A DNA stretch of 57,979 nt from a virus. The translations under genes were made by a program, and so were the position numbers. The notes beneath the pieces are model-generated. The model did no database searches, had not been told where the DNA came from, and saw only the letters and a program-made list of their open reading frames with translations. Below, one piece after another: positions 3,052 to 57,726 of the stretch; the first letter of the stretch is position 1, and the number at the start of each line of letters is the position of its first letter. The DNA lies in IMG/VR virus record IMGVR_UViG_3300037316_000015, positions 1 through 57,979 of that record. One strand, written 5' to 3'.

Positions 3052-3344
3052 CATCAGACATTGCCGCGACCATGGCCAGCGCTCGTCAGACAGTGCTTGG
3101 GGTCGTCACTGCTCGGATGTATGACGACATCAACGCCGCGACGTACATGATCGACTCCTTCGTCAAGGAGATGACTGACAACGGTCAGACCTCAGACGAT
3201 GCCTGGGCTCAGATGTTCGCCGCTTCCGTGCTGCTGATCATCCCTCTGGTGGAGTGCCGATCGGCCCACCACAAGATCAGCCTGGATGACTCACTGCGCG
3301 AGATCGGTGTTGTCCTGGCTGAGTTCAGGGATCAGCATGGCTAA
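3048..3344 (+). CDS. small hypothetical head-region protein
   Basis: 98 residues, starting at an ATGA overlap with the portal stop. It is mostly helical in character, with one moderately hydrophobic stretch (MFAASVLLIIPLVEC, about residues 55-70). No motif that I recognise. Four-base overlap with the portal and eight-base overlap with the next gene suggest coupled expression with the head genes. Could be a portal- or scaffold-associated small protein; function unknown. Confidence 0.75.
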   Translation: MTSDIAATMASARQTVLGVVTARMYDDINAATYMIDSFVKEMTDNGQTSDDAWAQMFAASVLLIIPLVECRSAHHKISLDDSLREIGVVLAEFRDQHG

Positions 3345-5064: not shown

Positions 5065-5579
5065 TGTATGGCCGACTGGGCATGACCGGGTCTGCACTTG
5101 GCCGCGGTGACAGTTCTGTGATGAAGATGGACACCACCATGAGTGAGCAGGATGCACACAAGCTGGTGACTCGTCATGGCACCCAGGGCCGGCTACCCAA
5201 GGAGCTCGGCCGTGACGACCGGATGAAGGCCTACGAGGCCAGGTACGTGGCCTCTGGTGGCAAGAAAAGCGAGAAGTGGGGCCACCGTGCCAACCTAGCT
5301 GACATCGGTCGCACTGCTGGGCTGGCAGGTGCCACGGCGTCTGCTGCCGCAATCCTGGCCGGCCGCGGCAAGCGCGTAGGCAGGCTGGCCGCCAAGGTCC
5401 CAGGCATACGTCACATCAAGCCGCATCACCTGGAGACGGCTGCTCTGTCCTCTGCCACTGGTGGTGGGATTTCTGAGCTCTACGGTGGGTATGCTCGCAA
5501 GAAGCGTGCGTCCTACCAAAGCTCCCCAGGAGGGGTTGCGGCCAGTGCACTGACCAGAATGCGTGGTTATACCCCATGA
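5061..5579 (+). CDS. basic head-region protein with glycine-rich helices
   Basis: 172 residues. The ATG at 5061 follows GGAGGAC closely and overlaps the previous stop. The N-terminal half is polar (TTMSEQDAHKLVTRHG). Two Gly/Ala-rich segments follow: TAGLAGATASAAAILAG (about residues 87-103) and AALSSATGGGISELYGGY (about 128-145). The C terminus is basic. It shares its general design with the genes at 3337, 12,593, 13,683, 14,111 and 14,674, although I cannot align them over long stretches. Function unknown. Confidence 0.75.
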   Translation: MMYGRLGMTGSALGRGDSSVMKMDTTMSEQDAHKLVTRHGTQGRLPKELGRDDRMKAYEARYVASGGKKSEKWGHRANLADIGRTAGLAGATASAAAILAGRGKRVGRLAAKVPGIRHIKPHHLETAALSSATGGGISELYGGYARKKRASYQSSPGGVAASALTRMRGYTP

Positions 5580-8500
5580 CTCTTGTACCTGTGAGCGGCC
5601 TGCTAGCCACTGTTGTTGACCTTGCCGAGCAGGATCCAGACGCTGCAGACGAGCTGGTTCGTCTTGGGCTGTACGAGTCCATGTCTGACCAGATCGAGGT
5701 GGCCAGGCCAGCTATCGAGGCCGAGGCTGTCGAGATCATCTCCAAGCAGGCAGCTCGGGCTCGCTCCGCTCTGCTGCGTGAGTACGTCGGCAAGGCCCTG
5801 GATGGCAAGCAGCCGGCTGACGCCACCGTGACTGCACAGGGCCTGGCCATCATCGACACGTATGTGGCCAAGGGCATCGGGCGGTCAATGCTGGACTTCG
5901 TCAACAACAAGCGTGACAAGCGTGGTCGGTTCGCTCCGGTTGACTCCCTCGGTCATGGGCTGAACAGAACACCGAAGAGTGAGCTTCAGCCAGACGACAA
6001 GTCACGTCGGGAGACTGCGACCAACCAGGCATCTGAACGGGTCAAGCAAGGGATTGATAGTGGTGCATTGAAGCCTGATGATCTGGTGCAAGTGCACTTC
6101 TCGACCAACCCTGACAAGCACACGAAGACCAAGAGCCTGAAACGAGAGTTCAAGGCCAGCGAGGTCGACGACAAGATCGAGGAGTACCGAGCCGCCGATG
6201 AGGCCGGTCCAGACCCGAAGTACCCCACCGGCATTGCCATGCCTAACAAGCTCCCTGCTGGTGTCCCCATGACTGGCAACAACCGGGCAGCCTATGACGC
6301 CATGGCTGGGTTCACCGGGCCTGAGGCAGCAGGTCGGATCGCTGGCCATATCCCGGCCAGAGGCAGTATTGCCTCAGCCAATGTTGCCGAGAACTGGAAC
6401 AACGCCAGCGATGGCAGTGACCGGCGTTCTTACCGGCGCATCGGGATGATGGGCACCGCGCTGACCAATGCCTCAGGGGACAACTCAACTAGTGCCATGG
6501 TCGGTGGTCTGGCTCAGCTGATCGGTGAGCTCGGGCCTGAGGCAGAAGACGTGCTCTCCCCTGGGTTCACCAGGATTGCCTATCGCTACCGTGGTACCGA
6601 GAAACGCCCTGACTCTGAGATGCTCTCCCAGATGGCTCAGGCGGACAGGACACTGTCAGTGCTGGACCCTGACCTGCCGGCGAAGGCTTCTGCCAAGCGT
6701 GTCGGGGATGCCAGAGTTGCCTCTGAGGACAAGCGTGAGGAACTGCTGGACACGTACAAGCATGACAAGAGCCAGGGGAACAAGGTCGCTGGTGTGATGG
6801 GGTACTACTCCCAGGACCGAGTCTTCAACAGCCTGACCCCAGACCAGCGTTCCATGCGGATTCGCGGAGACATGCTCTCTGCTGACCTGATGGACCGGGT
6901 ACCTGACGCCAAGCTGGCTGACCTGTCGATCAGCTCTGGTCAGACGCCACCGTCTGTCGGGGTCATGCTCGATGCTGAAGGCAAGGTCGTTTCCGAGGCG
7001 ATGGGTTTCAACGGTGACCACTACCTGCCGTTCGACCTGAAGAACCTCAAGGCTCTGCACGGTGGCCAGTACGTTCGTACCCGCACCATGGGTGGTCCCA
7101 CGACCGAGGACATCTACACCGGTCTGATGACAGGGGCTCGACAGCTGCAGGTGGTGTCCAACTCCGGGGTCTACACGGTGGAGTTCGACCCTGACCTTCG
7201 AGGCGGCCGCCGGTACAGCGACAAGGCCAAGAAGATGGTCGAGCGCTACGGCAGGATCCTGGACGCGATCGGGTCAAACGAGCTTTACCGCCAGGATCTT
7301 CCTGCAGCCAGGAAGCAGGAGATCTGGGAACAGGCAATGGACTCTACTGGCTGGGACCCTACCAAGGGTGGCGAGGCGTACCGGGACATGATCAAGGAAG
7401 CCCGTCTGCGTGAGGGCGGTGGTCAGTCACTGACCGGCAGCAGCAAGGTGGCTGTCGAGACAGAGGCCAAGGTTGACGCTCAGATGAAGGCCGAAGACCA
7501 GCAGTCTGGTAATGCCCTGCGAGGCGCCGGCCGAGCCCAGCGCAAGGCTGAGTTGATGCGTGAGCAGATGGCTATCGCTCGAGAGACGGCCGTCGACCAG
7601 TACCAGCTCAACGGTCCTGGTTACCACGATGCCTTGAAGGCGCTCAAGACTGAGTTCCCGTACTACATCCGCAGTGTGAAGTACGAGGAGATCCCCCAGT
7701 TCAACGAGCGCCGCAAGCTCGGGCCGATGACCAGGCGCAACCGGGCCTACAGCAACGACCGTGGCTACACCCCACCCGGGTCCAACCGTGCCAGTGCCGA
7801 GGAGAACGCGTATCGGGGCAAGGAGGCCAAGGCAGGTATCGGTGGTCGTGGCAAATGGAAGCCAAAGGGCGCAGCAGCCGAGGCCACTAACGAAGCTGAT
7901 CAAGAAGTGGACGAGACAACTGGTAGTGCTAGTGCGACACACGCACGTCCTGCACTTGGCGGCCGGGTTGCTGCCACACATCAGTTCGGCGGCGTGCGAA
8001 TGTCTCTGGACAAGGACACCAAGCCGTTGACCGAGATCCTTGGCCCGGGTAAGGCTGCTTCTCGTCAGTTGATGATCCCGTTGACCAAGCTGCTGACGAC
8101 GGTGAAGACCAACTCAAACATGTACGGTCCGAACGGAAGGATCCAGGAACCTGTTGGTGGCGAGACAGTAACCGTGGACAAGGGACCGATGTATGTCATG
8201 AATGCCTGGTCCAAAATGGTTGGTACTGATCGCCCGCAGCAGTTTGCCAACTGGGTTATCGGCAAGGCCACTGACCAGGAGCGTGATGCAGTCATCGAGA
8301 CGCTGAACAGCATCCCAGAAATGGTGTCAAGCATCTCTGACGTGAACGCTCGTGAGCAGGTTTATGCCAACTACGGCGGTGTCGACGGTGTGAAGGAGTC
8401 GGTCAAGGAAGCGGTAGCGCTGACATCACTGGCCAGTCCGTTTGGGCCGGCTGCTGGTGACGAGGCGAAGATGGCCATGGCACTGCCTGCCTCCGGTGAT

Positions 8501-8971
8501 CCAAAGCCTCAGCCATTCCCTGCTGTGCTCCAACTTGGTGACAAGCTGAGCAACTACACGGACTGGGAGTCCAAGGCAGTCAATAGCAAGATTTTGCCTC
8601 AGGTTCAGGGGATGAAGGGCAAGTCCGACGCCGAGATCGGTCAGTGGCTCACCAGTGCGATCGAGGCGCATAAGCAGCTCGAGGAAACTGGCCGGCCTGG
8701 TACCAGTCAGGAACAGCGTGAGCGTGTCCAGGCGATTAGCAACGTGCAGCAAGCATGGGCATTCGTCCGAGCCAAGTCACTGGTTGAGTCACTGGGTGGC
8801 CTCCCAAAAGCGCAGGCCCCTCAGCAGGGGGCAGCCAACCCGTGGTCCCCGCCGGCAGCAGGGGTAGCGGGGTTCAAGTCAGCGTCCCTGGACCAGCCAG
8901 CGTGGACAGTGGGGGATCTGGCGGCAACGTACAGCCGGTCGGAAGTGCTCGCCTACCTGGCACAGGGGTAG
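5576..8971 (+). CDS. very large head-associated protein (1131 aa), possible frameshift donor
   Basis: 1131 residues starting at an ATGA overlap. The first 120 residues are helical and end in a basic motif KRDKRGRFAPV (about residues 113-123), reminiscent of the HPRDxxGRF motif found in many phage head proteins. The middle and C terminus are mostly polar and helical; RKLGPMTRRNRAYSNDRGY and a long acidic/basic linker are visible. No enzymatic motif recognised. Near the end, codons CCA-AAA at 8804-8809 are preceded by C, forming the slip heptamer CCCAAAA in the right phase; a -1 shift there would enter the next gene's frame, giving a fusion of about 1376 residues. Its position between portal and prohead protease makes a minor capsid or internal virion protein likely. 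Confidence 0.8.
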   Translation: MTLVPVSGLLATVVDLAEQDPDAADELVRLGLYESMSDQIEVARPAIEAEAVEIISKQAARARSALLREYVGKALDGKQPADATVTAQGLAIIDTYVAKGIGRSMLDFVNNKRDKRGRFAPVDSLGHGLNRTPKSELQPDDKSRRETATNQASERVKQGIDSGALKPDDLVQVHFSTNPDKHTKTKSLKREFKASEVDDKIEEYRAADEAGPDPKYPTGIAMPNKLPAGVPMTGNNRAAYDAMAGFTGPEAAGRIAGHIPARGSIASANVAENWNNASDGSDRRSYRRIGMMGTALTNASGDNSTSAMVGGLAQLIGELGPEAEDVLSPGFTRIAYRYRGTEKRPDSEMLSQMAQADRTLSVLDPDLPAKASAKRVGDARVASEDKREELLDTYKHDKSQGNKVAGVMGYYSQDRVFNSLTPDQRSMRIRGDMLSADLMDRVPDAKLADLSISSGQTPPSVGVMLDAEGKVVSEAMGFNGDHYLPFDLKNLKALHGGQYVRTRTMGGPTTEDIYTGLMTGARQLQVVSNSGVYTVEFDPDLRGGRRYSDKAKKMVERYGRILDAIGSNELYRQDLPAARKQEIWEQAMDSTGWDPTKGGEAYRDMIKEARLREGGGQSLTGSSKVAVETEAKVDAQMKAEDQQSGNALRGAGRAQRKAELMREQMAIARETAVDQYQLNGPGYHDALKALKTEFPYYIRSVKYEEIPQFNERRKLGPMTRRNRAYSNDRGYTPPGSNRASAEENAYRGKEAKAGIGGRGKWKPKGAAAEATNEADQEVDETTGSASATHARPALGGRVAATHQFGGVRMSLDKDTKPLTEILGPGKAASRQLMIPLTKLLTTVKTNSNMYGPNGRIQEPVGGETVTVDKGPMYVMNAWSKMVGTDRPQQFANWVIGKATDQERDAVIETLNSIPEMVSSISDVNAREQVYANYGGVDGVKESVKEAVALTSLASPFGPAAGDEAKMAMALPASGDPKPQPFPAVLQLGDKLSNYTDWESKAVNSKILPQVQGMKGKSDAEIGQWLTSAIEAHKQLEETGRPGTSQEQRERVQAISNVQQAWAFVRAKSLVESLGGLPKAQAPQQGAANPWSPPAAGVAGFKSASLDQPAWTVGDLAATYSRSEVLAYLAQG
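8803..8832 (+). promoter_or_regulatory. candidate -1 ribosomal frameshift site (CCCAAAA plus hairpin)
   Basis: CCCAAAA at 8803-8809 lies in the phase C-CCA-AAA relative to the 1131-residue frame, so both tRNAs can re-pair after a one-base backward slip. Six bases later GCCCC (8816-8820) can pair with GGGGC (8828-8832) around a seven-base loop. The -1 frame has no stop from 8803 through to 9705. All three ingredients of a bacterial -1 frameshift are therefore present; use in vivo is inferred. Confidence 0.55.
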
Positions 8972-30319: not shown

Positions 30320-31201
30320 ATGGCGGGCGCTTACCCGAATGTCCCTGACCACCGGATGGTGTGCGACCTTGACGGCACCGGCTTGTTCAAGATCAGCTCG
30401 GCCAACGCCATCACTGCCTTGCTGCCAGCTGACCAGCAGAGCCTGCAGGACGAGTCGGATGCCTCGTTCGTGGTCATGGATGGGGTGGCCCAGAAGTACG
30501 CGGTCTTGATCTTCCCGGAGAAGCGGGACCTGGCCGGTTACTTCGTGTCTGTGACCGTTCCGAACACAGGTGTGAGCGTCGGACTGGCCACTTCGGTGGA
30601 CACCACCAACGGGGTTGACGGGACCTGGGTCAATTTGGTGGCACCAGCAGCCGTCGTGGCGGGCGTGGCGCCCTTTGGGAGGGTGACCGTCCCTTTCTAT
30701 CGATCTGGGATTACAGCGGCTGTAGCGGCCGGGATCAAGGCCCTGAGGGTATCTGTGGTGCCAACGCTGTCAGCAGATCCATCCTCTCTGGTGGCTGTGC
30801 ACCTGTACGGCACCATTACGGCTGGTCAGGCGCTGGACCGGCTGGCCATCTGGGACCCGGTTCTGGACCAGCCAGTTGGCTCCTCCTACTTCGACTGGGG
30901 CGATGTCCCGCGTTCATCCAGCCAGAGCCTGCTGTTCCGGGTGAAGAACCTGTCAGCAGGGATGACCGCCACCACGGTGGTCTGCAGCCTGGATGCCCTG
31001 ACAGATACGACCCCGTCCGTGCCAGGCCAGCACACCATCTCCAGCGATGGCGGGGTCACCTTCGGTGCCACAGCGCCTCTGTTCAACCTCTCCCCGGGTG
31101 AGATCTCACCGCTGGTTACGCTGCGTCGAGTCACCCCGGTGGACGCGGTGCTGTCCTTGTGGAGTCTTCGGCTCAGTGTGGTAGCCACCTCATGGGTCTG
31201 A
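30320..31201 (+). CDS. beta-rich tail-tip protein
   Basis: 293 residues; TAGGAG ribosome site overlapping the previous stop. Repeated beta-strand pattern throughout (AGYFVSVTVPNTGVSVGLAT, KALRVSVVPTLSADPSSLVA, SLLFRVKNLSAGMTATTVVC), with a C-terminal Ig-like fold (GQHTISSDGGVTFGATAPLF). Likely part of the tail tip or a fibre; no enzymatic motif seen. Confidence 0.6.
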   Translation: MAGAYPNVPDHRMVCDLDGTGLFKISSANAITALLPADQQSLQDESDASFVVMDGVAQKYAVLIFPEKRDLAGYFVSVTVPNTGVSVGLATSVDTTNGVDGTWVNLVAPAAVVAGVAPFGRVTVPFYRSGITAAVAAGIKALRVSVVPTLSADPSSLVAVHLYGTITAGQALDRLAIWDPVLDQPVGSSYFDWGDVPRSSSQSLLFRVKNLSAGMTATTVVCSLDALTDTTPSVPGQHTISSDGGVTFGATAPLFNLSPGEISPLVTLRRVTPVDAVLSLWSLRLSVVATSWV

Positions 31202-32796
31202 ACGCCGCTGAGTACATCTACGAGAACACCGGGGTCAACGCTGACAACGGTGCTTTCGAGTACGTTTCCAGTAACGACATCGACACCAGCAGGGATGCCC
31301 ACGAGTACGCACAGATGAATGCCGGGGTGGCTCTGCAGGCACCCATCGGTGGTTTCGAGTACCTGTTCGAGGGTGATGTTGACACCGGGGTAGCAGTACC
31401 GTCGATCTGGTTCGTCCATGCGTCCTCAGGCTTCGCCGGGGACCTCATCACCATCTACGGGATCGGCATGGGGGCTCTGGCTGACACAGACAGCACCCAC
31501 CTGTGGTGGTACCCGGCAGACGGGACAGCAGCTATCGACATGTCCATCGACTCCTGGACTGCCCAGCCAGCCAGTGCTGATGCCTACGATGCGAACCGGC
31601 TGATCAGCTCAGGGCCTGGGGTTGAGGACCCGTTTGCCAACGTCGAGTGCGAGATCTTGGTCGCCTACGTCCCGCTGGTGGTGGCTCCGAGCATCGCAGC
31701 AGGCCCGCGCACCGACCAACTGTGCGTAGTTGATGTCAACGGCTCCTCCAACCTGCTCCCCTGGCAGGTCTACCCAGGGATCGAGATGCCGCTGGCTGTC
31801 ATGCTCGGCAGTCTGCACGGCATGGTGAGCCTGAGCATGGTGTCCGACCCTGAAGCACCGTCGACTGCGATCGAGCAGCCATACGCGGTGATCATCCCCG
31901 AGCCGTACATCATCACCGGCAGCCTGGCTGAGCGTAAGCCACTGTTCGGGGCCTACTCCAAGACCAGTGCTGCGGTCTCAGCCAACTACTCGGCCACTGC
32001 AGGACTGGAGGAGGCACTGGCCACCACGATGCAGGCCGGCACCCCGGGGCACATGCTGGTGGCCGACTCCAGGTGGCTACCTGACGCAGACATGGTTGTC
32101 GCTCGAGACGACCTTGGTAGTGGGCTGACTACCTGGCTGCCGATCCAGGGATCACAGGTGAACTGGCTGGAGCAGTACGCCGACTCAGCCGGCTACGTCG
32201 ACCCCACCTACCAGTACGTGAGCCGCAACGGCCTGGTCAACAAGCCGGCCATGGTCATGGACGGCACGGCCTGGTTGAGGTTGAACACCGACCTGGCTAC
32301 CGGGCCGACCTTCACCGTTGCCATGGTGGTCATGCTGCACGAGTCCAAGTACAACGCCCAGCTGCTCACCAGCTTCAGTGATACCCCGGTGAACGGGGAC
32401 AACCCACTGGCCTTCAGCCAGGAAGGTGACTCCGTCGCGGTGTACATCGGGGCCCACATCGGGGCTGGGGCAACTGCCTATGGTGGGAAGGTGCTGTCCA
32501 AGCCGCTGAGTGGGATGAACCGTCCTGTCATCATTGCGTTCTCCAGCAACGGCACCTACTCCAGCATCGTGGTGGTCGACCACACCCCGAAGAACTGGTA
32601 CGTCAAGCACCCGCCACTGACTGCGGCCAACCTGCGGGTCTACCTGGGGCGGCCACCAGTGCTGCTGCCTCAGTCCAACGAGGGGATCATGAATGGTGAG
32701 ATCCTCGACCTCTCCCTTTGGCACGTCACGATGACCACGGCTCAGCTACTGCAGGTTACTTCCAAGCTGGACGGCATCTACGGGGTGACCGGATGA
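31192..32796 (+). CDS. tail fibre-like protein with IPT/TIG and concanavalin-like domains
   Basis: 534 residues. I chose the ATG at 31,192, overlapping the previous gene by ten bases, over an upstream GTG. An IPT/TIG-like strand pattern (HASSGFAGDLITIYGIGMGA) occurs near residues 76-95. The C-terminal 200 residues resemble a LamG/concanavalin A-like sandwich: FTVAMVVMLHESKYNAQLLT, VAVYIGAHIGAGATAYGG and EILDLSLWHVTMTTAQLLQV. Such domains bind carbohydrates, so it is a good candidate receptor-binding protein. Receptor unknown. Confidence 0.65.
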   Translation: MGLNAAEYIYENTGVNADNGAFEYVSSNDIDTSRDAHEYAQMNAGVALQAPIGGFEYLFEGDVDTGVAVPSIWFVHASSGFAGDLITIYGIGMGALADTDSTHLWWYPADGTAAIDMSIDSWTAQPASADAYDANRLISSGPGVEDPFANVECEILVAYVPLVVAPSIAAGPRTDQLCVVDVNGSSNLLPWQVYPGIEMPLAVMLGSLHGMVSLSMVSDPEAPSTAIEQPYAVIIPEPYIITGSLAERKPLFGAYSKTSAAVSANYSATAGLEEALATTMQAGTPGHMLVADSRWLPDADMVVARDDLGSGLTTWLPIQGSQVNWLEQYADSAGYVDPTYQYVSRNGLVNKPAMVMDGTAWLRLNTDLATGPTFTVAMVVMLHESKYNAQLLTSFSDTPVNGDNPLAFSQEGDSVAVYIGAHIGAGATAYGGKVLSKPLSGMNRPVIIAFSSNGTYSSIVVVDHTPKNWYVKHPPLTAANLRVYLGRPPVLLPQSNEGIMNGEILDLSLWHVTMTTAQLLQVTSKLDGIYGVTG

Positions 32797-42171: not shown

Positions 42172-42694
42172 CTGGTGCTCCTTGCTTGGTTGGTTGGATC
42201 GGGCGTGCGCTTGCTGCTGCTGCTTCCTTGAGTGCATCGAGGAAGCCTTCGTCGTCGACTGGCACTACCAGGGTGCGTGGGCCGCCGGCCGCCAAGGCCT
42301 GTTCGGACTGGAGCCCGACCAGCTTGGACCTGTTCATGATGATGTTCACGATCGCGGTTACTGCCGGAACGCTGCCGCCCTTGGCTTTTGGCCACAGGAA
42401 CAGCTGCATGGCGTCTAGGCGCCCTACCTCAAGGGTCAGCTGGTCGCGCTGGCTTTTCTCGGTGACCAGGGCTGCTCCTTCCTTCAGGTAACGGTCCACG
42501 TCGGCCTTGCAGGCAATAGCAGTGGGGTACTTCTCGGCGATTGCGATCTCTTCCCAGCTGCTACCTTCCAGGCGCTTGATGTGGCACCGGTAGGCGCGCT
42601 CGGCCTCGGTGACTATCTCACCAGGCACGGCAATCGGCTCAGACGCAGAGTTGCGGAAGACCAGGACCTTGCCTTCCTCTACTTCAGAGCTCAT
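42158..42694 (-). CDS. terminase-small-subunit-like DNA-binding protein
   Basis: 178 residues from the ATG at 42,694, with GGAGGC in front. RAYRCHIKRLEGSSWEEIAI forms a helix-turn-helix, and LTLEVGRLDAMQLFLWPKAK followed by VTAIVNIIMNRSKLVGLQ matches the helical part of small terminase subunits of actinobacterial phages. The small subunit recognises packaging sites. It is encoded in the early region, far from the head genes; the large subunit is not in the window. A different HTH regulator is an alternative. It overlaps the resolvase gene by four bases. Confidence 0.6.
   Translation of the reverse strand: MSSEVEEGKVLVFRNSASEPIAVPGEIVTEAERAYRCHIKRLEGSSWEEIAIAEKYPTAIACKADVDRYLKEGAALVTEKSQRDQLTLEVGRLDAMQLFLWPKAKGGSVPAVTAIVNIIMNRSKLVGLQSEQALAAGGPRTLVVPVDDEGFLDALKEAAAASARPIQPTKQGAPDVTS
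42178..42197 (-). promoter_or_regulatory. CAACC-repeat ribosome site of the DUF932 gene
   Basis: Minus-strand CCAACCAACCAAGCAAGGAG precedes the ATG at 42,171. It is a member of the recurring CAACC leader family, here with an extra AAGC before AAGGAG. Confidence 0.65.
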
Positions 42695-43230
42695 GTTGCC
42701 TCCTTGAGCTTGCGCTTCTTCTTCGGCTTGGCCACAGGTGCCAGTATTTCACCACTGGACCTGCCTATGCCGTACAAACCGATGCACATGGCGTCGACCT
42801 CGTCCTGACCACTGCAGATGTCGGACAGGCCCGGGTGGTGCATGGCCAACCAGTCACCGACCTGCAGCTTGTCCAGCCGTCCATTACCACACACCTGAGC
42901 CTTCCAGGTTGACTGGCCGATGATGTTGACCGAACCCCAGAGCATGGCAGCCTGTACGGCGCCAACTGTCTCTGCCATGGCGATGGTGGTGGTCTGGTTG
43001 GACTTGCCGCCGTTGCTCAGAAACGGCTGCTCCACCCACAGATGTATGTCCTTGGCTGGCACATAGAGATACAGGTTGACGATCTCTCGCAACCACTGGG
43101 TCATGGTCCGCAGCTCCTGGTCGCGTTCCCACACACCAGGCTTCTCCAGGTCACAGTGATAGGCGTGGTTGTACATGGGTACCCCGATGGCCAGCCGGCG
43201 GATGCCGATGTCCACGCCTATGTCGATCAT
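42691..43230 (-). CDS. RuvC-like Holliday junction resolvase
   Basis: 179 residues from the ATG at 43,230. RNase-H-fold motifs of RuvC are present: DIGVDIGIRRLAIGV at the N terminus (first catalytic Asp), HLWVEQPFL (Glu, about residue 66) and DEVDAMCIGLYG near the C terminus (last acidic pair, about 143-147). It would cut branched DNA before packaging or after recombination. The C terminus is basic (KPKKKRKLKEAT). Overlaps the small 33-residue gene upstream and the HTH gene downstream. Confidence 0.75.
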   Translation of the reverse strand: MIDIGVDIGIRRLAIGVPMYNHAYHCDLEKPGVWERDQELRTMTQWLREIVNLYLYVPAKDIHLWVEQPFLSNGGKSNQTTTIAMAETVGAVQAAMLWGSVNIIGQSTWKAQVCGNGRLDKLQVGDWLAMHHPGLSDICSGQDEVDAMCIGLYGIGRSSGEILAPVAKPKKKRKLKEAT

Positions 43231-43328
43231 GTGATCACCGACTTGATGGCGTCACAGTGCTTCTGGATCAGAGAAGACCATGGTGGGATTGCAGCCTCGA
43301 CAGCCAGCTTCTCTTGGAGATCAGTCAT
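43227..43328 (-). CDS. very small coupled gene (33 aa)
   Basis: 33 residues (begins MTDLQEKLAVEAAIPPW). Its ATG at 43,328 overlaps the stop of the Cas4-like gene and its TGA overlaps the ATG of the resolvase, so both ends are coupled. GGGGGAT lies shortly upstream. It reads as one amphipathic helix with a Trp and a Cys. Function unknown; it could be a small partner of either neighbour. Confidence 0.6.
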   Translation of the reverse strand: MTDLQEKLAVEAAIPPWSSLIQKHCDAIKSVIT

Positions 43329-44121
43329 GACGATCCCCCTGAGAACTGAGTGAGAACTGAGAAACGGTCGTAGCCTTCAGGCACACGTCCCGATATGGGC
43401 ACCGCCGGTAGACCGTGCCCTTCTTGGCCTTGCACAGGTCAAGCACCTCAGGGAGTTCGTCTTCCTCGACGTAGCGCCGGTAGCTGTTCAGCCGGCGGAT
43501 GACCTCCTGCTCGATCTTCAGGTCACGGCTGATCCTGAACTCGTGAAACGTCCCGGAGGACCGGTTCTCGTAGACCACTGAGGCGATGTCGATGTCTGCC
43601 AGCAGGAAGTAGTTGTGCACCTGTAGCAGGTTCTCCCACTTGGGCCACATGTCTACCGAGACGATCCGGTTGTAGATCTGCCAGGCGGCGCTCTTGAGCT
43701 CGAACAATGAGCCATCGGAGAGCAGACCGTCCATCGACCCACCAGAGAGCAGATCAGGCTCGTGGACCCACATCTCTGCTTCTTTGATGTAACCCAGGGT
43801 CAGACCTTCGGTCTGCCACTTCAGGTGGGTCCACGAGCCATGGTCCATCATCTCCTGGTTGTCGATGTCTGGCTGTCTCCCGGGGGCCCCGGCATAGCCG
43901 AAGACCACTCGTCGATGGCACTCCCCCATCGCAGATGGTGAGAACCGTCCAGGCCGCTCGTGCTTGAACTCGCGGCGTAGCACCTTGGCGGAAAAATCAA
44001 TGGCCTCATCGGAGTAGATCTGCTGCTCCTCAGGGGTTTCCAGCCACTGGACGTGTGGAGCTGTAACCACCAGCTTGGAGCCACGCTGTGCCTCTTCATA
44101 AAGTCCTTTTGTCGTTGCCAT
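43321..44121 (-). CDS. Cas4/RecB-like nuclease
   Basis: 266 residues from the ATG at 44,121. PD-(D/E)XK features: FSPSAMGECHRR (about 60-71), a GSMDGLL Asp (about 130), then LFELKSA (about 140). Four cysteines are placed as in Cas4-type Fe-S nucleases: one in GECHRR and three near the C terminus (LDLCKAKK, YRRCPYRDVC). It probably acts as a 5' or 3' exonuclease in phage recombination or DNA end processing. No CRISPR array is nearby. It could be called an exonuclease of the RecB family if the cluster is absent. Confidence 0.75.
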   Translation of the reverse strand: MATTKGLYEEAQRGSKLVVTAPHVQWLETPEEQQIYSDEAIDFSAKVLRREFKHERPGRFSPSAMGECHRRVVFGYAGAPGRQPDIDNQEMMDHGSWTHLKWQTEGLTLGYIKEAEMWVHEPDLLSGGSMDGLLSDGSLFELKSAAWQIYNRIVSVDMWPKWENLLQVHNYFLLADIDIASVVYENRSSGTFHEFRISRDLKIEQEVIRRLNSYRRYVEEDELPEVLDLCKAKKGTVYRRCPYRDVCLKATTVSQFSLSSQGDRHD

Positions 44122-44128
44122 GGGTTCA

Positions 44129-44147
44129 CTCCTTGGTTGGTTGGTTG
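44129..44147 (-). promoter_or_regulatory. CAACC-repeat ribosome site of the Cas4-like gene
   Basis: Minus-strand CAACCAACCAACCAAGGAG is the longest copy of this leader; it ends seven bases before the ATG at 44,121. Confidence 0.7.
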
Positions 44148-44149
44148 CC

Positions 44150-44296
44150 TCACCTGTTGCGGTTGGCATCGGTGCATGGCACGCACCTGCAGCCGGCGTT
44201 GTAGCTGGTTCGGTTGCCATGCTTGCGGTCAGGCAGGACAACCCCGTCAGTTGTTCGTTTCGGTCGTCCCCTGGTGACCTGTGATGGCTGGGTCAT
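44150..44296 (-). CDS. small zinc-knuckle-like protein
   Basis: 48 residues from the ATG at 44,296, inside the end of the polymerase gene; GAAGGAC precedes it. The tail NRTSYNAGCRCVPCTDANR matches a small cysteine motif (GCRCxxC) often seen in actinobacterial phage proteins. It probably binds one metal ion. The rest is basic. Role unknown. Confidence 0.6.
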   Translation of the reverse strand: MTQPSQVTRGRPKRTTDGVVLPDRKHGNRTSYNAGCRCVPCTDANRNR

Positions 44297-46949
44297 AGTC
44301 GTGGTCCTTCCAGTCGATGTGGTCCAGTACCTTGCTCTTCTCGAGGTGACCAATGATGCCGCCACACTCGTCTGGCCACTTGCCAAGGGCCAGCAGTTTC
44401 GCACCACTGACCTTACGTGGCAGAACTCTTTCCGCAAGGTCATTCAGAGAGTCGTATGGCGCCTTGGTCGCCAGCTCGGTGGCAGCTACCAGACCGACAC
44501 CGTTGACTGACAGGAACCCCTTGCGAATCGCATGGCCCTCCTTGCTGTAGGTGATCCCTGAGGAGTTGATCTCTGGTGGCTTGACGGTGATGCCACTGAC
44601 GCGGGCAGATGCCACGTACAGCAGCTCCTTCTTGTGGTTGCCGTACGCGGTCAGGATCCCTGTCCAGAACGACACCGGGTGGTGCTTCTTCATCCATGCT
44701 GTGCGGTAGGCCGTGACGCCGTAGGAGGCAGCGTGTGCCTTGTTGAAGGAGTACTCGGCATATGAGGCCAGGGACTCGGTGAACCAGTCCAGGTCGCCGT
44801 CTGTCCAGCCCCGCTCGTTGGCCATCTCCTTGATCCGTGGCATCATCTCCTCGATAACCACGCTGGCGCCGGCTGAGTAGTCGTTGGACGCCTTGACTGC
44901 GTCCAGCATCTCCTCGAGCTCAGCGGTGACCATGCCAAGGTTCTCGCACACGTCCATGACCTGCTCCTGGTAGAGCATGACCCCGAGTGTCTCCTTGGTG
45001 GGCCCTGAGATGTCCGGGTGCCTCCTGGGGATCTCCTGCATCCCATTGCGACGCTCCCGGTAGTCGGAGGTGGCCATCGACCCCATCGTGGCCGGCCGGA
45101 ACAGAGCCTGGATCGCAATGACATCCTCGATCTTTCGTGGGGCGATCTGCTTGCAGCCATAGTTCATGGCCTTGCCCTCGAGCTGGAAGACACCCATGTT
45201 GTTGCCCTTGGCGATCTGAGCAAAGGTGGCCCGGTCGTTCAGCGGGATGGTGTCGAAGTCGACCCCACTCAGCTCCTGGGCAACCCTGATGGCAGTGCGG
45301 GTACGCAGACCCAGCAGGTCCAGCTTGAGGAAGCCAAGCAGCTCGACGTGCTTCTTTCCGTAGGCCGTGACCAGCTTCTTGCTGCTGGCAATCCAAGCCA
45401 TCGGCAGCTGGGACACCAGGTCCTCGTTGGGCGCCACGATGTAGCCGGCGGCATGCCTGCCATAGCCAGAGAGCAGCTCAAGGTCAGCCAGGGCTAGCAG
45501 CTCGTCACGGTCAGCACGAGGGATGTTGTTCCAGCTGCGAACTGGGGTGCCCTTCTTGTTCATCGTGGAGTAGTAGCGCACCTTCAGACTGCCTCGGCCG
45601 CTGTCTTCCTCCTCGTCCTCGTCCAGGGAGTACTTCATGTGGCTGCCGATGCCACGCACACTCCACAGGCTCTGGATGAAACCCACCACCTCGTCACGTC
45701 GGTCGTGCTCGATGTCGATGTCGACATCAGGTGGCTTGATCCGGCTCGAGCTCATGAACCGCTCGAAGCGCAGACCGAAGGCGATCGGGTCCAGTTGGGT
45801 GATGTCCAGCAGCCAGAGCACCAGGCAGCCACTGGCCGACCCGCGAGTGTGGAAAGAGATGCCACTCTCCCGCATGAAGGAACACACCTTCTTGACCAGC
45901 AGTGGGTACGGTGCCATGCCCTGGACTCTGAACACGTCGAACTCCTTGCGCACCTGGGCAAGGTAGACCGGGTTCTTGTCCAGGCCCCTGTCCTTCAACA
46001 CAGCCATAGCCATGGACTCCATGACTTCCTGCGGGTCACGACCTGGGGTCACGTCGGGGATCTTCAGGGAGAAGTTCTCCAGCTCAGGCAGACGCAGGTA
46101 GGCACGCTCGGCCAGCTCGGACAGGCCCTCCATGCCGGCGGCCAGGTACTTAGGCTCGAAGTACGGCCGCATTCCATCTTCATCCGTCATGAAGTACCCG
46201 CCACCGGGAAACATCGCCTCGTCTGGGTCATCCGAGAATGAGACCAGGCGCTTGAGTGACTCGTGCAGGTGCTTGTCGGCCTCGTTGACGTAGTGGGAGT
46301 CACGGGTGACCACACACGGCAGACCAGCGGCCTGGGCAACATCCCAGATGCCAGCAATCAGCTCGTCATCGGTGAAGTCAAGATCCGAGTGGTGTTCGTC
46401 GATGCCATGGTTCTGCATCTCCACGTACACCCGGGGGAACCAGCCAGCCAGGGTCTCAGCGACCTTCCTGGCAGCCGCTGGGCCCTGTCGCATGAGCACC
46501 TGGGGCAGAACACCGAAGTAGCACCCAGTGGCCACAGCCAGCCCTGCTGTGGCCCCGTCAGCGGCCATTGCAGCGAAGTCTGCAAAGTCGATCAGCGGCT
46601 TGTAGTAGAACCGGTGTGAGGTCAAGGTGGCGATGTGGCACAGGTTGCGGTACCCGGCCTCGTCGTAGGCCACCATGGTCAGGTGCATCGAGTCACCGCG
46701 GGCCGCGTACTCGGTGTCAGGGACCACATAGAGCTCGATGCCAGGCAGAGGCTCGATGCCGAACTTACGGCAGGCCTTGTACAGCGCAATGGCACCTGGC
46801 ATGCCGCCGTGGTCGGTCAGCCCGAGAGCCGGGTAGTTAAGCTCGTTGGCCCGCTCGACCATGGCCTCCACTGTGGGCAGCGCATCGTTGAACGAGTACT
46901 TGGAGTGGGAATGCATTGACCAGTAGGGCCGAGGGGCTACGATTGCCAT
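44247..46949 (-). CDS. dnaE: DNA polymerase III alpha subunit (DnaE-like), short form
   Basis: 900 residues from the ATG at 46,949. N-terminal PHP domain: YWSMHSHSKYSFNDALPT and ALGLTDHGGM. The catalytic palm carries PPDVDIDIEHDRRDEV (near residue 405), with the three acidic residues of DnaE enzymes. GSASGCLVLWLLDITQLDP, GYGRHAAGYIV and FNKAHAASYGVTAYRTAW are also typical. Bacterial DnaE has about 1160 residues; the C-terminal OB fold and clamp/loader-contacting part are missing here. No clamp or loader genes are visible, so it may use host factors. Replicates the phage genome. Confidence 0.9.
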   Translation of the reverse strand: MAIVAPRPYWSMHSHSKYSFNDALPTVEAMVERANELNYPALGLTDHGGMPGAIALYKACRKFGIEPLPGIELYVVPDTEYAARGDSMHLTMVAYDEAGYRNLCHIATLTSHRFYYKPLIDFADFAAMAADGATAGLAVATGCYFGVLPQVLMRQGPAAARKVAETLAGWFPRVYVEMQNHGIDEHHSDLDFTDDELIAGIWDVAQAAGLPCVVTRDSHYVNEADKHLHESLKRLVSFSDDPDEAMFPGGGYFMTDEDGMRPYFEPKYLAAGMEGLSELAERAYLRLPELENFSLKIPDVTPGRDPQEVMESMAMAVLKDRGLDKNPVYLAQVRKEFDVFRVQGMAPYPLLVKKVCSFMRESGISFHTRGSASGCLVLWLLDITQLDPIAFGLRFERFMSSSRIKPPDVDIDIEHDRRDEVVGFIQSLWSVRGIGSHMKYSLDEDEEEDSGRGSLKVRYYSTMNKKGTPVRSWNNIPRADRDELLALADLELLSGYGRHAAGYIVAPNEDLVSQLPMAWIASSKKLVTAYGKKHVELLGFLKLDLLGLRTRTAIRVAQELSGVDFDTIPLNDRATFAQIAKGNNMGVFQLEGKAMNYGCKQIAPRKIEDVIAIQALFRPATMGSMATSDYRERRNGMQEIPRRHPDISGPTKETLGVMLYQEQVMDVCENLGMVTAELEEMLDAVKASNDYSAGASVVIEEMMPRIKEMANERGWTDGDLDWFTESLASYAEYSFNKAHAASYGVTAYRTAWMKKHHPVSFWTGILTAYGNHKKELLYVASARVSGITVKPPEINSSGITYSKEGHAIRKGFLSVNGVGLVAATELATKAPYDSLNDLAERVLPRKVSGAKLLALGKWPDECGGIIGHLEKSKVLDHIDWKDHDYDPAITGHQGTTETNN

Positions 46950-53021: not shown

Positions 53022-53523
53022 CTTGTCCCTCCTCCTTCTTGGATTGCAGCGAGAAGATGTCCCCGCCGGTGTCGAACACGCTGAACAGATCCTGCAGGTG
53101 CTGAGCCCGGGCAATCGGGTGATGATGCTCCCGATCACGAGGTTCTTCTGTATCGAAGTCAGCCATGCACTCCAGGATGTCGAAGCAGTCAGCCAAGGTG
53201 ATGGAAGGACTCACCCGTGCCTGCTGTACATCCGGGACCCCAGGCACATCCTGCTCGTATACCACAGACTCACCGATGGCCTGATCGAGCAAGGCCATGG
53301 CCAGTCTGCTGCGCACCGTGTTGACGTGGTGGTCAACACCCCAGTCCACCAGTACGTGGTAAGCACCGATGGCATGGGATGGGTGCATGGCAATGATGTA
53401 CACCAGCTTCTTGTCCCTATGCGATGGCCAGGTGACATCCTGGTTCAGGTAGCTGATGTAGTCGATGGCGTCCCAGTCCATCATCTGTGAGCGCAGAGCC
53501 GGTGGTGGCTGATGTGCCACCAT
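53014..53523 (-). CDS. hypothetical histidine-rich protein
   Basis: 169 residues; TGATG overlap with the gene upstream. Helical with several His (MHPSHAIGAYHVLVDWGVDH and a REHHHP stretch). Could bind metal, but no family is recognised. Overlaps the next gene by eight bases. Confidence 0.6.
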   Translation of the reverse strand: MVAHQPPPALRSQMMDWDAIDYISYLNQDVTWPSHRDKKLVYIIAMHPSHAIGAYHVLVDWGVDHHVNTVRSRLAMALLDQAIGESVVYEQDVPGVPDVQQARVSPSITLADCFDILECMADFDTEEPRDREHHHPIARAQHLQDLFSVFDTGGDIFSLQSKKEEGQDG

Positions 53524-54410
53524 CAGCAGTCCACATCCTCAAGCTCGTCGTCATCGGCATGAGCATCGGCGTCGATCTCGGCGATAGCATTGGCATAATT
53601 TCGCCGAGACATCTGGCAGTCCGTGCACATGCACCGATCAGATGGGCTCCAGCCGATGTCCTCGAAGAAGAAGTCCACCTGGGCATTGGTCAGCTGCGTA
53701 CCGTTGGCGGTGTAGTAGGCCACGATCTTCTCGATGTCGTCCATGGAGTTGTCAGCCCTGAAGAGCTCCAGGATGTCCCACTTCAGGCCCAGGGCCACCC
53801 TTGCCGCGTACTCCACCGAGCACAGGTCATGAGTGGCCTCGGTGAAGCCACGAGTGGCCAGGCAGCCCTTCAGAGTCGTTGGCAGATAGGCCCAGGTCTT
53901 GTCGTAGGGCACCGGCGGCGGCTCAGGTGACTTGCGCACCAGGATGGTGTCGGTCCAGCTGCCAATGTCGTAGACAAATCCGGGGACGCTCATGCCGTCC
54001 TTCTTGACAAGGCCCTGTCTGCCGTCGAGCTGAGTCTTCTTGATCGCCTCACCATCGATGACCCAGTCCACATGGGTGAGCTCGTTGACCCAGCCGGCGA
54101 AGCACATGGACGTACCACACACCGGGTTCTTCTCATCCTGCTCGAAGGCAGACAGGGCCTTGACCTGACGCTGAGCCTCGGCCGTGGGCGGGTCGAACAT
54201 GAGTGTGCGCCATGATGTCTGGCGCCACAGTGCCCGGTGGGTGTGGATGATCTCCAGCACAGCCTGTGCCAGCTCGGCGTTGAAGCCGTTATCCAGTGGC
54301 TTGTAGGCCTTCATGGGCAGCTTGAACACCGAGGCTGTCCAGGTGGCAATGCCGTTGGTGGTCTCGACTCCGGACATGCCGTCCTTGGTGGTGATGGTGC
54401 GGTTTGTCAT
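53523..54410 (-). CDS. CGTSMC-motif protein, copy 2
   Basis: 295 residues, ATGA overlap with its upstream paralogue. It shares TWT, KAY, DNGxNxEL, SWR, VKALxAF, CGTSMCxAGW and DWVxDG with the 54,407-55,321 protein, plus RGFxxAxH near the middle. The C terminus has CMCTDCQM and a very acidic tail. The conserved pair of cysteines suggests a metal or redox site. Function unknown. Confidence 0.7.
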   Translation of the reverse strand: MTNRTITTKDGMSGVETTNGIATWTASVFKLPMKAYKPLDNGFNAELAQAVLEIIHTHRALWRQTSWRTLMFDPPTAEAQRQVKALSAFEQDEKNPVCGTSMCFAGWVNELTHVDWVIDGEAIKKTQLDGRQGLVKKDGMSVPGFVYDIGSWTDTILVRKSPEPPPVPYDKTWAYLPTTLKGCLATRGFTEATHDLCSVEYAARVALGLKWDILELFRADNSMDDIEKIVAYYTANGTQLTNAQVDFFFEDIGWSPSDRCMCTDCQMSRRNYANAIAEIDADAHADDDELEDVDC

Positions 54411-55321
54411 AGTGATGCTCCGTTCCTGGTTGATGTTCCGTCGTTGACGGCGTACGTGACAGTGTCACTTGGGGTGGCTGCCAAGGCCTCGTCGTAGAGC
54501 TGGTTCTCCAGTGTGCGTCTAATCACTGACCCCCTGGATTGGCTGTAATCCGCCCCGTGGGCGATGTAGTAGTCGGCACACTTGCTCAGCATCTTCACTG
54601 AGTTGGAGCCGTCGAACATGCGTAGCGGGTCGCTGCAGATGCCCAGTGCCATCTTTGCGTAGGTGGACACGTTGATGACGGCGTGACTGGCTACCGAGAA
54701 GCCACGCTTGGCTGAGATGATCTGCAGCTCCTCACCGAGCTCATCCCAGAAGTAGGCGCTGGTGTAGTCAGCAGTGCCATTCCAGGTGTTCCCGTAGTCC
54801 AGTGAGGACTTGTCGTGGTCCACCCGATCCATGAACCAGCCCCTGGGCACCCAGACAAGCTCAGAGAGCTCTGAGACGTTGCTGGTCACACTCATCTCAT
54901 CCTTGGTGATCATCTTCATCACCGTGCCGTCCACAACCCAGTCAGCACCTGAGAGCTCACTGGCCCAGCCGGCCATGCACATGGAAGTACCACACACCGG
55001 TGGTTTGACCTCCAGCTCGGCCACGTCTGTGTTGAAGGCCAGCAAGGCTTTCACCTCCTGTGCTACAAGGTGGTAGTCACCAGTAGGCTCCTGGGGGTCC
55101 CAGATCTCGATGCTCCTCCAGGAGCCTTGGTCCCACAGGGTAGGGCTGGCCTTGATGGAATCCATCACATCTTCCATGAGCTCCTTGTTGACCCCGTTGT
55201 CCAGGAAGGTGTCGTAGGCCTTGATCGGGTGCCTAAGCACCTGTGAGGTCCAGGTTGTCGTCCCGTTGGTGTTGGTGATGATGGTGTCGTGCTGCTCGTT
55301 GATCGTCTGGGTCTTGCGCAT
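54407..55321 (-). CDS. CGTSMC-motif protein, copy 1
   Basis: 304 residues from the ATG at 55,321. Paralogue of the next gene downstream; motifs in order are KAYDTFLDNG, SWRSIEIWDP, EVKALLAFNT, CGTSMCMAGWASEL, SGADWVVDG and KRGFSVASHA. A possible promoter lies 300 bases upstream. A host-directed or DNA-related role cannot be told apart from sequence alone. Tandem duplication is the clear observation. Confidence 0.7.
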   Translation of the reverse strand: MRKTQTINEQHDTIITNTNGTTTWTSQVLRHPIKAYDTFLDNGVNKELMEDVMDSIKASPTLWDQGSWRSIEIWDPQEPTGDYHLVAQEVKALLAFNTDVAELEVKPPVCGTSMCMAGWASELSGADWVVDGTVMKMITKDEMSVTSNVSELSELVWVPRGWFMDRVDHDKSSLDYGNTWNGTADYTSAYFWDELGEELQIISAKRGFSVASHAVINVSTYAKMALGICSDPLRMFDGSNSVKMLSKCADYYIAHGADYSQSRGSVIRRTLENQLYDEALAATPSDTVTYAVNDGTSTRNGASL

Positions 55322-55805
55322 GGTGTTCCCATCCAAAGGTTGGTGCTTACCAGTGCCAAGAAGTCCTTGACACCGTCGGTACACTTGAGCTCAAGCTGAC
55401 GAAGGAAGTGCCTAGGTAGTCCTAGATCCCCTATCAGCCTGGCCTCCACTGGCCTCAATGAAGCATTGGAGCATTGAAGCAGAGGCAGTGGAGTAAGCAT
55501 AAGGATCGCGGTGCGATCCCTATGAAGGTCCGGGCAATGAAAACAGCCCCTGTTGAGCACCGGGATGAAGACATGGTGATTCCAGAAGCTGATTGATGAA
55601 TAATACCAGAGCGTGGTGGCTGAAGAGAACCCTTGAACGCCAAGGACTTAGCAGCATATGACGCGCACAGCGCGTACAGGGGGAAATGTGGTCAAATGCG
55701 TGTGGGGCACCATGTCCTCTCCCACTGGCGGAGTCGCTAATCGCTTTCAGGGGTTGAACGCCCCTTCCCAGATGTCAATGCACCTGTCCGGCCCTTACAT
55801 CAGTG
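55322..55805. other. gene-free structured stretch (possible long leader or origin)
   Basis: No convincing gene. It holds a 12-base perfect palindrome CTTGAGCTCAAG (55,384-55,395), a hairpin CTAGG/CCTAG (55,412-55,425), a seven-pair hairpin GGATCGC/GCGATCC (55,503-55,519), two hairpins with a shared TTGAACGCC loop region near 55,630-55,780 and a probable promoter. This could be the origin of replication, a long control leader or a small RNA. Confidence 0.45.
55600..55629 (-). promoter_or_regulatory. possible extended -10 promoter
   Basis: Minus-strand TGGTATTAT (-10 at 55,600-55,605 with TGG) has a weak -35 TTCTCT (55,624-55,629) at 18 bases. It would drive the two CGTSMC genes through a long leader. 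Confidence 0.4.
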
Positions 55806-55878
55806 CTCCCCAGGTAGGAGTCGAACCTACGAGCTCGTGCCTCAGAAGCATGATGGGCCACCCACGACCCACTGGGGA
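55806..55878 (-). tRNA. tRNA-like gene, anticodon CTG (Gln), unusual D arm
   Basis: 73 bases with seven perfect acceptor pairs (TCCCCAG / CTGGGGA), a perfect T arm (GTAGG-TTCGACT-CCTAC), a five-base variable loop and an anticodon arm with loop TTCTGAG, giving anticodon CTG. One anticodon-stem position mismatches. The D arm is atypical: the best stem is GGGTC/GGCCC shifted by one base, and A14 is missing. No CCA is encoded; the discriminator is G. It lies in the early operon, read with the minus-strand genes. Confidence 0.7.
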
Positions 55879-56391: not shown

Positions 56392-56555
56392 GGTGTCTCC
56401 TCCAGCTTGTGTATGAGCCAGCCGTCGATCCACTGGTCGTGCTGCCCAGGGCGCCAGGTCAGCCCAGAGTCAGGGCGTTCCTGGAAGTGGTGGTACCGAA
56501 ATGGCGTACCCCGCCATGGGCCGTCGTCTATCTGCTCGTATGGCTTTGCAGCCAT
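56349..56555 (-). CDS. small hypothetical protein
   Basis: 68 residues from the ATG at 56,555, which overlaps the TopoVIA-like stop (TGATG). Aromatic and polar (GPWRGTPFRYHHFQERPDSG, HDQWIDGWLIHKLEE). It overlaps the next gene by 43 bases, more than usual. No recognised family. Confidence 0.55.
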   Translation of the reverse strand: MAAKPYEQIDDGPWRGTPFRYHHFQERPDSGLTWRPGQHDQWIDGWLIHKLEETPCSDHSSRSTSRTE

Positions 56556-57463
56556 CAGTGAGCCTGTAGATAGTCCTGGATGTCGCCCCACCGGTTGGCG
56601 ACATGGACCACGTCGTTCCTGATCTCCTGCTCGTGGGCAGAGGAAGCCCGCCAGGTAGCCACGTCCAGCTCGCCCCAGATGGTGTCCTTGACCAGTGAGT
56701 CGAGCACGGACGGCTCCAAGGCGTCCAGCTCCCAGGACTGGTTGCCGTACGCGGAGATGTACCCAGCAGAGCGGCTGTCGGTGACCTTGGCCGGGTTGGG
56801 CGGCGGGTTGTACAGGTCGATCTGGTCCCGGTTCAGCGCTATCCTTCGTACGTCAACGCTGGATCTGGAGAACAGCGACAGCCGGTCGGTGATGTCTCGG
56901 GTCATGTCGATCCCCGAGGGGTCATGGTCACCAAGGTGCAGGATGATCACTTCCTTGCCTTCGTCCAGGTAGCCCACGATTCGCTGGCCGGCAGCCCACA
57001 TCTCGGACTGGGAGACGTAGCCCTTGCAGGCGAAGGACGCACAGCGGTAGGAGAAGGCCGCCCTGGAGATGATCCCAGCTAAGGCTTCCTTCTCTACCCA
57101 GACCTCGATACGGACGCCCTGGGCTTCCCACAGGTCCTCGAAGTACTGCTCGGCTGATCGTTGGATGAGCTGCTCTGGGCTCTCGTTGTGGCCGGACAGG
57201 TCGCCGCGGACGTTGCGAGTCCTGTCGGTGATGTAGTCCCAGTCCAGCATCCCGGCCAGGCGTGCGTCCGAGATGATGGAGCCGAGCTTCTTGTAGGACT
57301 TCTGCTGGTTGGGCAGCATGTCCCGGGATACGAACTGGTAGTAGAGCTGGCGCAGTGTCAGGTCGTAGCCCTGCCGGCGGTAGTCGGCGCAGATATTGAT
57401 GGCCGTGTCGATAATGGCCAGTGCGTCGGCGCCGAACTCCTTGGGCTGGTAGAGGATTCTCAT
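56555..57463 (-). CDS. Spo11/topoisomerase VI A-like protein
   Basis: 302 residues, overlapping the gene upstream. The N terminus has LTLRQLYYQFV with the paired tyrosines (41-42) of the 5Y-CAP domain. A TOPRIM domain follows with VWVEKEALAG (Glu124) and LHLGDHDPSGIDM (Asp179, Asp181). Both motif sets match the topoisomerase VI A subunit and Spo11, and no B (GHKL ATPase) subunit is visible. It could be a mini-A-type enzyme that makes double-strand breaks for recombination or packaging, or a topology factor. The usual A subunit is about 360 residues, so this one is compact. Confidence 0.75.
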   Translation of the reverse strand: MRILYQPKEFGADALAIIDTAINICADYRRQGYDLTLRQLYYQFVSRDMLPNQQKSYKKLGSIISDARLAGMLDWDYITDRTRNVRGDLSGHNESPEQLIQRSAEQYFEDLWEAQGVRIEVWVEKEALAGIISRAAFSYRCASFACKGYVSQSEMWAAGQRIVGYLDEGKEVIILHLGDHDPSGIDMTRDITDRLSLFSRSSVDVRRIALNRDQIDLYNPPPNPAKVTDSRSAGYISAYGNQSWELDALEPSVLDSLVKDTIWGELDVATWRASSAHEQEIRNDVVHVANRWGDIQDYLQAH

Positions 57464-57726
57464 TTGACCTCCCCGGCAGCCAACATGTGCCTGTAGACGA
57501 GCAGGTTCATTGTGACGGCGGCCCCGGTGAGCAGGTTCAGGGCTTCGGTCATGTCGGGGAATCTCTTGTCGTTCTCCACAACGAGTGCGTCGCAGATCTT
57601 CTCCATCGCCTCGACTAGGTCGTTGTTGGCAGGGAACCCCGGGTCGGCCATCTTGGCTTCGTCGTCGACCGGCAGGTTGATGCCGTAGCGCTCGTTGTTC
57701 CTTGGTCCACTTCTACTGGCTTCCAT
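57460..57726 (-). CDS. hypothetical small helical protein
   Basis: 88 residues; ATG at 57,726 with AAGGAC in front. Helical, ending in ALNLLTGAAVTMNLLVYRHM. No family recognised. Its stop overlaps the TopoVIA-like start. Confidence 0.6.
   Translation of the reverse strand: MEASRSGPRNNERYGINLPVDDEAKMADPGFPANNDLVEAMEKICDALVVENDKRFPDMTEALNLLTGAAVTMNLLVYRHMLAAGEVK

Follow-up and report, generated by a model that had tools for sequence, protein, structure and literature searches.

The window analyzed here, a phage record of 57,979 bases with a GC content of about 60%, carries a 302-residue gene on the minus strand (positions 56555 to 57463) that is a new member of the named Mini-A family. We estimate, with a probability of roughly 70%, that its product is the DNA-cleaving A part of a type IIB topoisomerase working without the B ATPase, and most likely a homodimeric, ATP-independent enzyme that makes tyrosine-linked DNA breaks. 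The family was described by Takahashi et al. 2020, as reviewed in PMC7614492 and PMC8185306, and comprises truncated Top6A homologues of bacteriophages and archaeal viruses, with the protein of Pseudomonas phage NP1 as its exemplar (PMC7614492). Mini-A has therefore been known since 2020, and membership is ordinary. The reviews call the function of Mini-A unknown and its archaeal members uncharacterized, and no biochemistry of a phage Mini-A appeared in the literature searched. Our analysis adds that homologues abound (at least 586 IMG/VR stretches carry one), that conservation of the catalytic residues is strict, and that the family has neither a constant gene partner nor an ATPase.

Family membership, catalytic residues and fold

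The open reading frame of 302 codons begins with an ATG at 57463, just 5' of which lies a GGGAGGT ribosome-binding site, and ends with a TGA at 56555. Its assignment draws on a PHROG match, identity to the NP1 protein, an AlphaFold model and Foldseek comparisons. PHROG 6247, annotated as 'DNA topoisomerase', covers residues 2-297 (E=1.7e-106). A tblastn search matches 68 phage records, with 38-53% identity among the matches listed, and the NP1 protein is related at 43% identity over 94%. Matches also occur in 40 plasmid records, and archaeal plasmid proteins annotated 'Topo Mini-A' are found at 31% identity; when the archaeal plasmid Mini-A protein served as the query, no viral relatives were recovered. 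Contigs of prokaryotic genomes contain 183 stretches with a homologue, and the best 80 of these 183 span many phyla. In a maximum-likelihood tree, the protein groups with those of the actinobacteriophages Commonplace and Fizzles and with a Leifsonia copy, with support of 100/97, values that are rough because the bootstrap had not converged. From this placement, an actinomycete is the probable host.

The initial annotation had recognized three motifs in the order and spacing of a type IIB A subunit. All three are present, LRQLYYQF at residues 37-44, VEKEA at 123-127 and GDHDPSG at 178-184, and the PHROG match, the 68 phage records and the invariance of the motif residues place them far beyond chance. 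Residues R38, Y42, E124, K125, D179, H180, D181 and G184 do not differ in any of the 154 aligned sequences, and the catalytic set R38, Y42, E124, D179 and D181 is also kept in very divergent Streptomyces and archaeal plasmid copies. Tyr41 and Tyr42 had both been put forward as candidate nucleophiles. Because Tyr41 is replaced by Phe in 6 of the 154 sequences and Tyr42 is invariant, only the latter is retained as the predicted nucleophile. The spacing of these residues parallels that of Spo11. The R-x3-Y element (R38/Y42; codons for RQLYY at 57338 to 57352, minus strand) corresponds to the published R131/Y135. Glu124, the Toprim glutamate (E124-K125 codons at 57089 to 57094, minus strand), is equivalent by motif order and spacing to Spo11 E233 and mouse E224. 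The predicted metal ligands of the Toprim DxD element, D179 and D181 (D179-H180-D181 codons at 56921 to 56929, minus strand), correspond to D288/D290. The distance from the glutamate to the first aspartate is 55 residues here (124 to 179), the same as in yeast (55, 233 to 288), with 53 in mouse and 52 in M. jannaschii. The catalytic residues of mouse SPO11 are Y138, E224, D277 and D279 (PMC11922746). Some annotations name family members 'DNA binding protein', as would suit a regulatory or catalytically dead relative with DNA binding as its sole activity; the invariance of all predicted catalytic residues across 154 sequences makes such a role very improbable.

The relationship to topoisomerase VI was examined by structure prediction, which the initial annotation had proposed as a search for a 5Y-CAP and TOPRIM pair. 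An AlphaFold2 monomer model built from 110 sequences has a pLDDT of 93.4 and a pTM of 0.82. Only four Foldseek matches against the PDB have an E value below 0.001, and all are topo VI-A subunits; the best, 1D3Y (E=1.1e-5), extends over essentially the whole chain. The model thus predicts a winged-helix/5Y-CAP domain plus a Toprim domain that match topo VI-A from end to end, in agreement with the anticipated pair. The global TM scores against topo VI-A are low (0.36-0.38), which we take to reflect domains set at another angle to each other in the model. With 14 sequences as input, an earlier model fell short (pTM 0.61) and its Foldseek matches were noise; the 110-sequence model superseded it. 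At the sequence level, the HMM search that had been suggested against topo VI-A and Spo11 came out negative. The Pfam TP6A_N and TOP6A-Spo11 Toprim profiles match neither the window protein nor any of 110 family members, and neither Pfam nor PDB sequences gave a real match in single-sequence and profile searches. Because the match to these Pfam profiles is missing, the protein is filed as Mini-A, rather than as topo VI-A or Spo11; the lack reflects how far the Pfam models reach and not a property that the biology demands. Only fold and residues reveal the link to topo VI-A.

Other homologues were observed on plasmids and in one genome bin. A 15.2 kb circular plasmid of Paenibacillus durus (L267, NZ_CP009289.1, 5115-6008) encodes a 47%-identical Mini-A and a Zot-domain protein, which suggests that it is a small non-tailed phage-like element. 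Contig L065, binned as Nanoarchaeota, carries a Mini-A of bacterial-phage type (54% identical) and is probably a misbinned phage contig. Divergent homologues with 25-29% identity lie on 31 Streptomyces plasmids (hits H63-H90, L105:2190-3065, L106:14977-15840), and both aligned copies retain the catalytic residues. Of the 24 listed Streptomyces copies, 16 are within 20 kb of a record end (KS versus uniform, p=0.0016, with redundancy and record starts uncontrolled). All three of the plasmid records examined are linear, and a link between these copies and linear-plasmid telomeres is possible.

Genomic setting and the search for a partner

The early half of the record is transcribed leftward, and the Mini-A gene occupies its right end. 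Directly upstream, the ORF list places a gene of 88 codons (57460 to 57726, minus strand) whose stop overlaps the Mini-A start by four bases (ATGA). The two genes are probably translationally coupled, and the upstream gene has no PHROG match. The record ends 516 bases upstream of Mini-A, within the same operon. Carriage by a virus is evident from the window itself, which encodes a portal protein, a DnaE-type polymerase with a PHP domain, a Toprim primase and a DnaB-like helicase. Further genes encode a RuvC-like resolvase, a Cas4/RecB-like exonuclease and a DUF932 protein.

The phage of this record is poorly related to described phages. Its DnaE-type DNA polymerase III alpha with PHP domain (44247-46949, minus strand) has its nearest relatives in Gordonia phage enzymes at about 31% identity, and the structural-side ORFs at 3286-5064, 5576-8971 and 31159-32796 (plus strand; 592, 1131 and 545 residues) have no PHROG or NCBIfam match. 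PHROG 889, labeled as of unknown function, is matched by both of two adjacent, overlapping genes (53523-54410 and 54407-55384, minus strand), which are tandem paralogues of about 300 residues each. A single tRNA-Gln gene (anticodon CTG; 55805-55878, minus strand) lies between this pair and the Mini-A operon.

The protein was originally described as standing alone, with no B subunit nearby. In agreement with that description, GHKL ATPase profiles (PF13589, PF02518) find no match in this record up to its end 516 bases upstream of Mini-A, and none in a further 14 Mini-A records, six of which are annotated phage genomes; the same profile search was positive in 14 of 14 control genomes. The missing B subunit, the NP1 homology and the topo VI-A fold together uphold the view of a stand-alone, Mini-A-type IIB A-like phage protein. 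A host factor or an unrecognized phage protein could replace subunit B. The surroundings of the gene were examined across about 180 Mini-A genes, whose 341 neighbors fall into 284 sequence clusters, the largest with at most four members. DNA polymerases, integrases, PAPS reductases, helicases, HNH nucleases and ParA recur two or three times each, and no conserved partner gene was found among the 341 neighbors. Because the neighbors are almost all different, Mini-A has no dedicated partner that can be recognized by sequence.

Variable neighbors are typical of accessory functions, and Mini-A might by analogy be a nuclease directed against competitor or host DNA, serving take-over or the exclusion of plasmids and phages in the manner of the Toprim nucleases that Wadjet (JetD/MksG) and Gabija use. 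In these defense systems, the nuclease component is a relative of Top6 (PMC13040014). However, PADLOC profiles, searched for a defense-type Toprim nuclease, gave nothing at E<=0.1, the gene is accompanied by neither an SMC-like nor an ATPase partner, and the active site retains a tyrosine suited to transesterification rather than simple hydrolysis. Such a role is therefore unlikely.

The initial annotation had also suggested that Mini-A might act together with Cas4-like and RuvC-like nucleases, its breaks serving recombination-dependent replication. Those genes (43321-44241 and 42691-43230, respectively) are indeed where it placed them, about 12-13 kb from Mini-A. In the close relative Microbacterium phage Fizzles, the gene immediately before Mini-A encodes a Cas4-family exonuclease, and genes for a recombinase and RuvC are nearby. 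NP1 encodes a Sak4-like annealing protein directly downstream of Mini-A, and in RDJL Phi 2, Mini-A comes after the DNA polymerase. A comparison of 25 Mini-A viruses with 25 random viral contigs showed no significant enrichment of PDDEXK_1 nucleases (5/25 versus 3/25, Fisher p 0.70), Sak4-type ATPases (7/25 versus 2/25, Fisher p=0.14) or family A polymerases (5/25 versus 3/25, Fisher p 0.70). The control contigs were picked by arbitrary 15-mers and are somewhat longer than the Mini-A set, up to 91 kb. With 25 contigs on each side, possible contig fragments and one profile per function, by which diverged members are missed, this test limits rather than excludes a connection with recombination. 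As a general rule, then, teamwork with Cas4-like and RuvC-like enzymes finds no support, and the idea is kept alive by the adjacency seen in the single phages Fizzles and NP1.

Proposed chemistry and function

Our results can be placed in the framework of type IIB chemistry. These enzymes are dimers with active sites formed from two subunits, and their two staggered cuts leave protein attached to the 5' ends (PMC11922746). The same paper shows that mouse SPO11 breaks DNA by itself and is also able to close single-strand nicks, so the need of a B subunit for cleavage is no longer an objection. This chemistry and the mouse precedent favor an ATP-independent break maker. In the proposed mechanism, Mini-A would consist of a winged-helix domain with the catalytic tyrosine, followed by a Toprim metal-binding domain, and two copies would dimerize on duplex DNA. 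Each of two hybrid active sites would combine Tyr42 of one copy with the Mg-binding Glu124, Asp179 and Asp181 of the other. Attack of each tyrosine on one strand would yield a break with short 5' overhangs and protein on both 5' ends. Lacking an ATPase clamp, Mini-A should not carry out ATP-driven strand passage. It may then either reseal the DNA by nick and swivel or dissociate, leaving a protein-capped double-strand break like that made by mouse SPO11 alone.

The resealing branch leads to a true small topoisomerase, which would cut and reseal to relax or unlink phage DNA, by nick and swivel or by ATP-independent passage, without lasting breaks. PHROG and RefSeq both use the annotation 'DNA topoisomerase'. 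According to reviews, one topo VIII needs no ATP to relax DNA, and enzymes of the topo VIII type show weak relaxing and decatenating activity; SPO11 alone is also able to reseal and relax (PMC11922746). Mini-A also occurs on small circular plasmids that need unlinking after replication. Nevertheless, it has no ATPase to drive strand passage, and the job is already done by host gyrase and topo IV. We regard this activity as a minority possibility.

Another use of a break would be to supply a primer. Type IIB cleavage leaves a 5'-linked protein and hence a free 3'-OH (PMC11922746), from which phage or plasmid replication could be started or restarted, with the protein on the 5' end, Rep-like but double-stranded. 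Mini-A is found on an archaeal plasmid of 8.8 kb and a Paenibacillus plasmid of 15 kb, which have few other annotated replication genes. The phage studied here, however, encodes a primase, a DnaB-like helicase and a DnaE polymerase of its own, and a priming function is quite improbable.

For the ATP-independent break maker that we favor, the target is a more speculative matter. The breaks may be made on the phage's own replicating DNA, where they could feed recombination or resolve linked products, as the position of Mini-A in the early region and the frequency of DNA-metabolism genes among its neighbors elsewhere would suggest. We advance only tentatively, at somewhat less than even odds, the fuller proposal that phage Mini-A is a self-sufficient, Spo11-like maker of programmed double-strand breaks on phage DNA that needs no B-like partner. 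If true, viruses would start recombination or replication with the chemistry that eukaryotes use to start meiosis. Because the cultured phages Fizzles, Commonplace, NP1 and RDJL Phi 2 carry Mini-A, the role of a lone Spo11-like enzyme could be worked out in ordinary phage laboratories.

Comparison with known systems

The Wadjet nuclease JetD/MksG and Gabija resemble Mini-A in being Top6-related prokaryotic Toprim nucleases, as described in the literature, but Mini-A is without a PADLOC or Pfam match and without their partner genes. Topo VIII is likewise a type IIB enzyme found on mobile elements. It differs in including an ATPase part, usually as a homodimer of one fused chain according to reviews, whereas this part is absent from Mini-A. 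Eukaryotic Spo11 is also a catalytic A-type protein with parallel residue spacing; it acts in vivo with a B-like partner and accessory factors (PMC11922746), and it has no detectable sequence-level relationship to the protein described here. Topo VI-A (M. jannaschii 1D3Y, M. mazei) shares the order of winged helix and then Toprim as well as the R-x3-Y, E and DxD elements, although its identity to this Mini-A is only about 14% and the B subunit is absent here. Functional topo VI and topo VIII (A2B2) require the GHKL ATPase B subunit, which was not found in this record. The closest counterpart is the Mini-A family itself, as represented by NP1, which has the same size, domains and catalytic residues and also lacks a B partner. 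From that family the protein shows no difference of substance, and within it the protein belongs to a supported actinobacteriophage clade.
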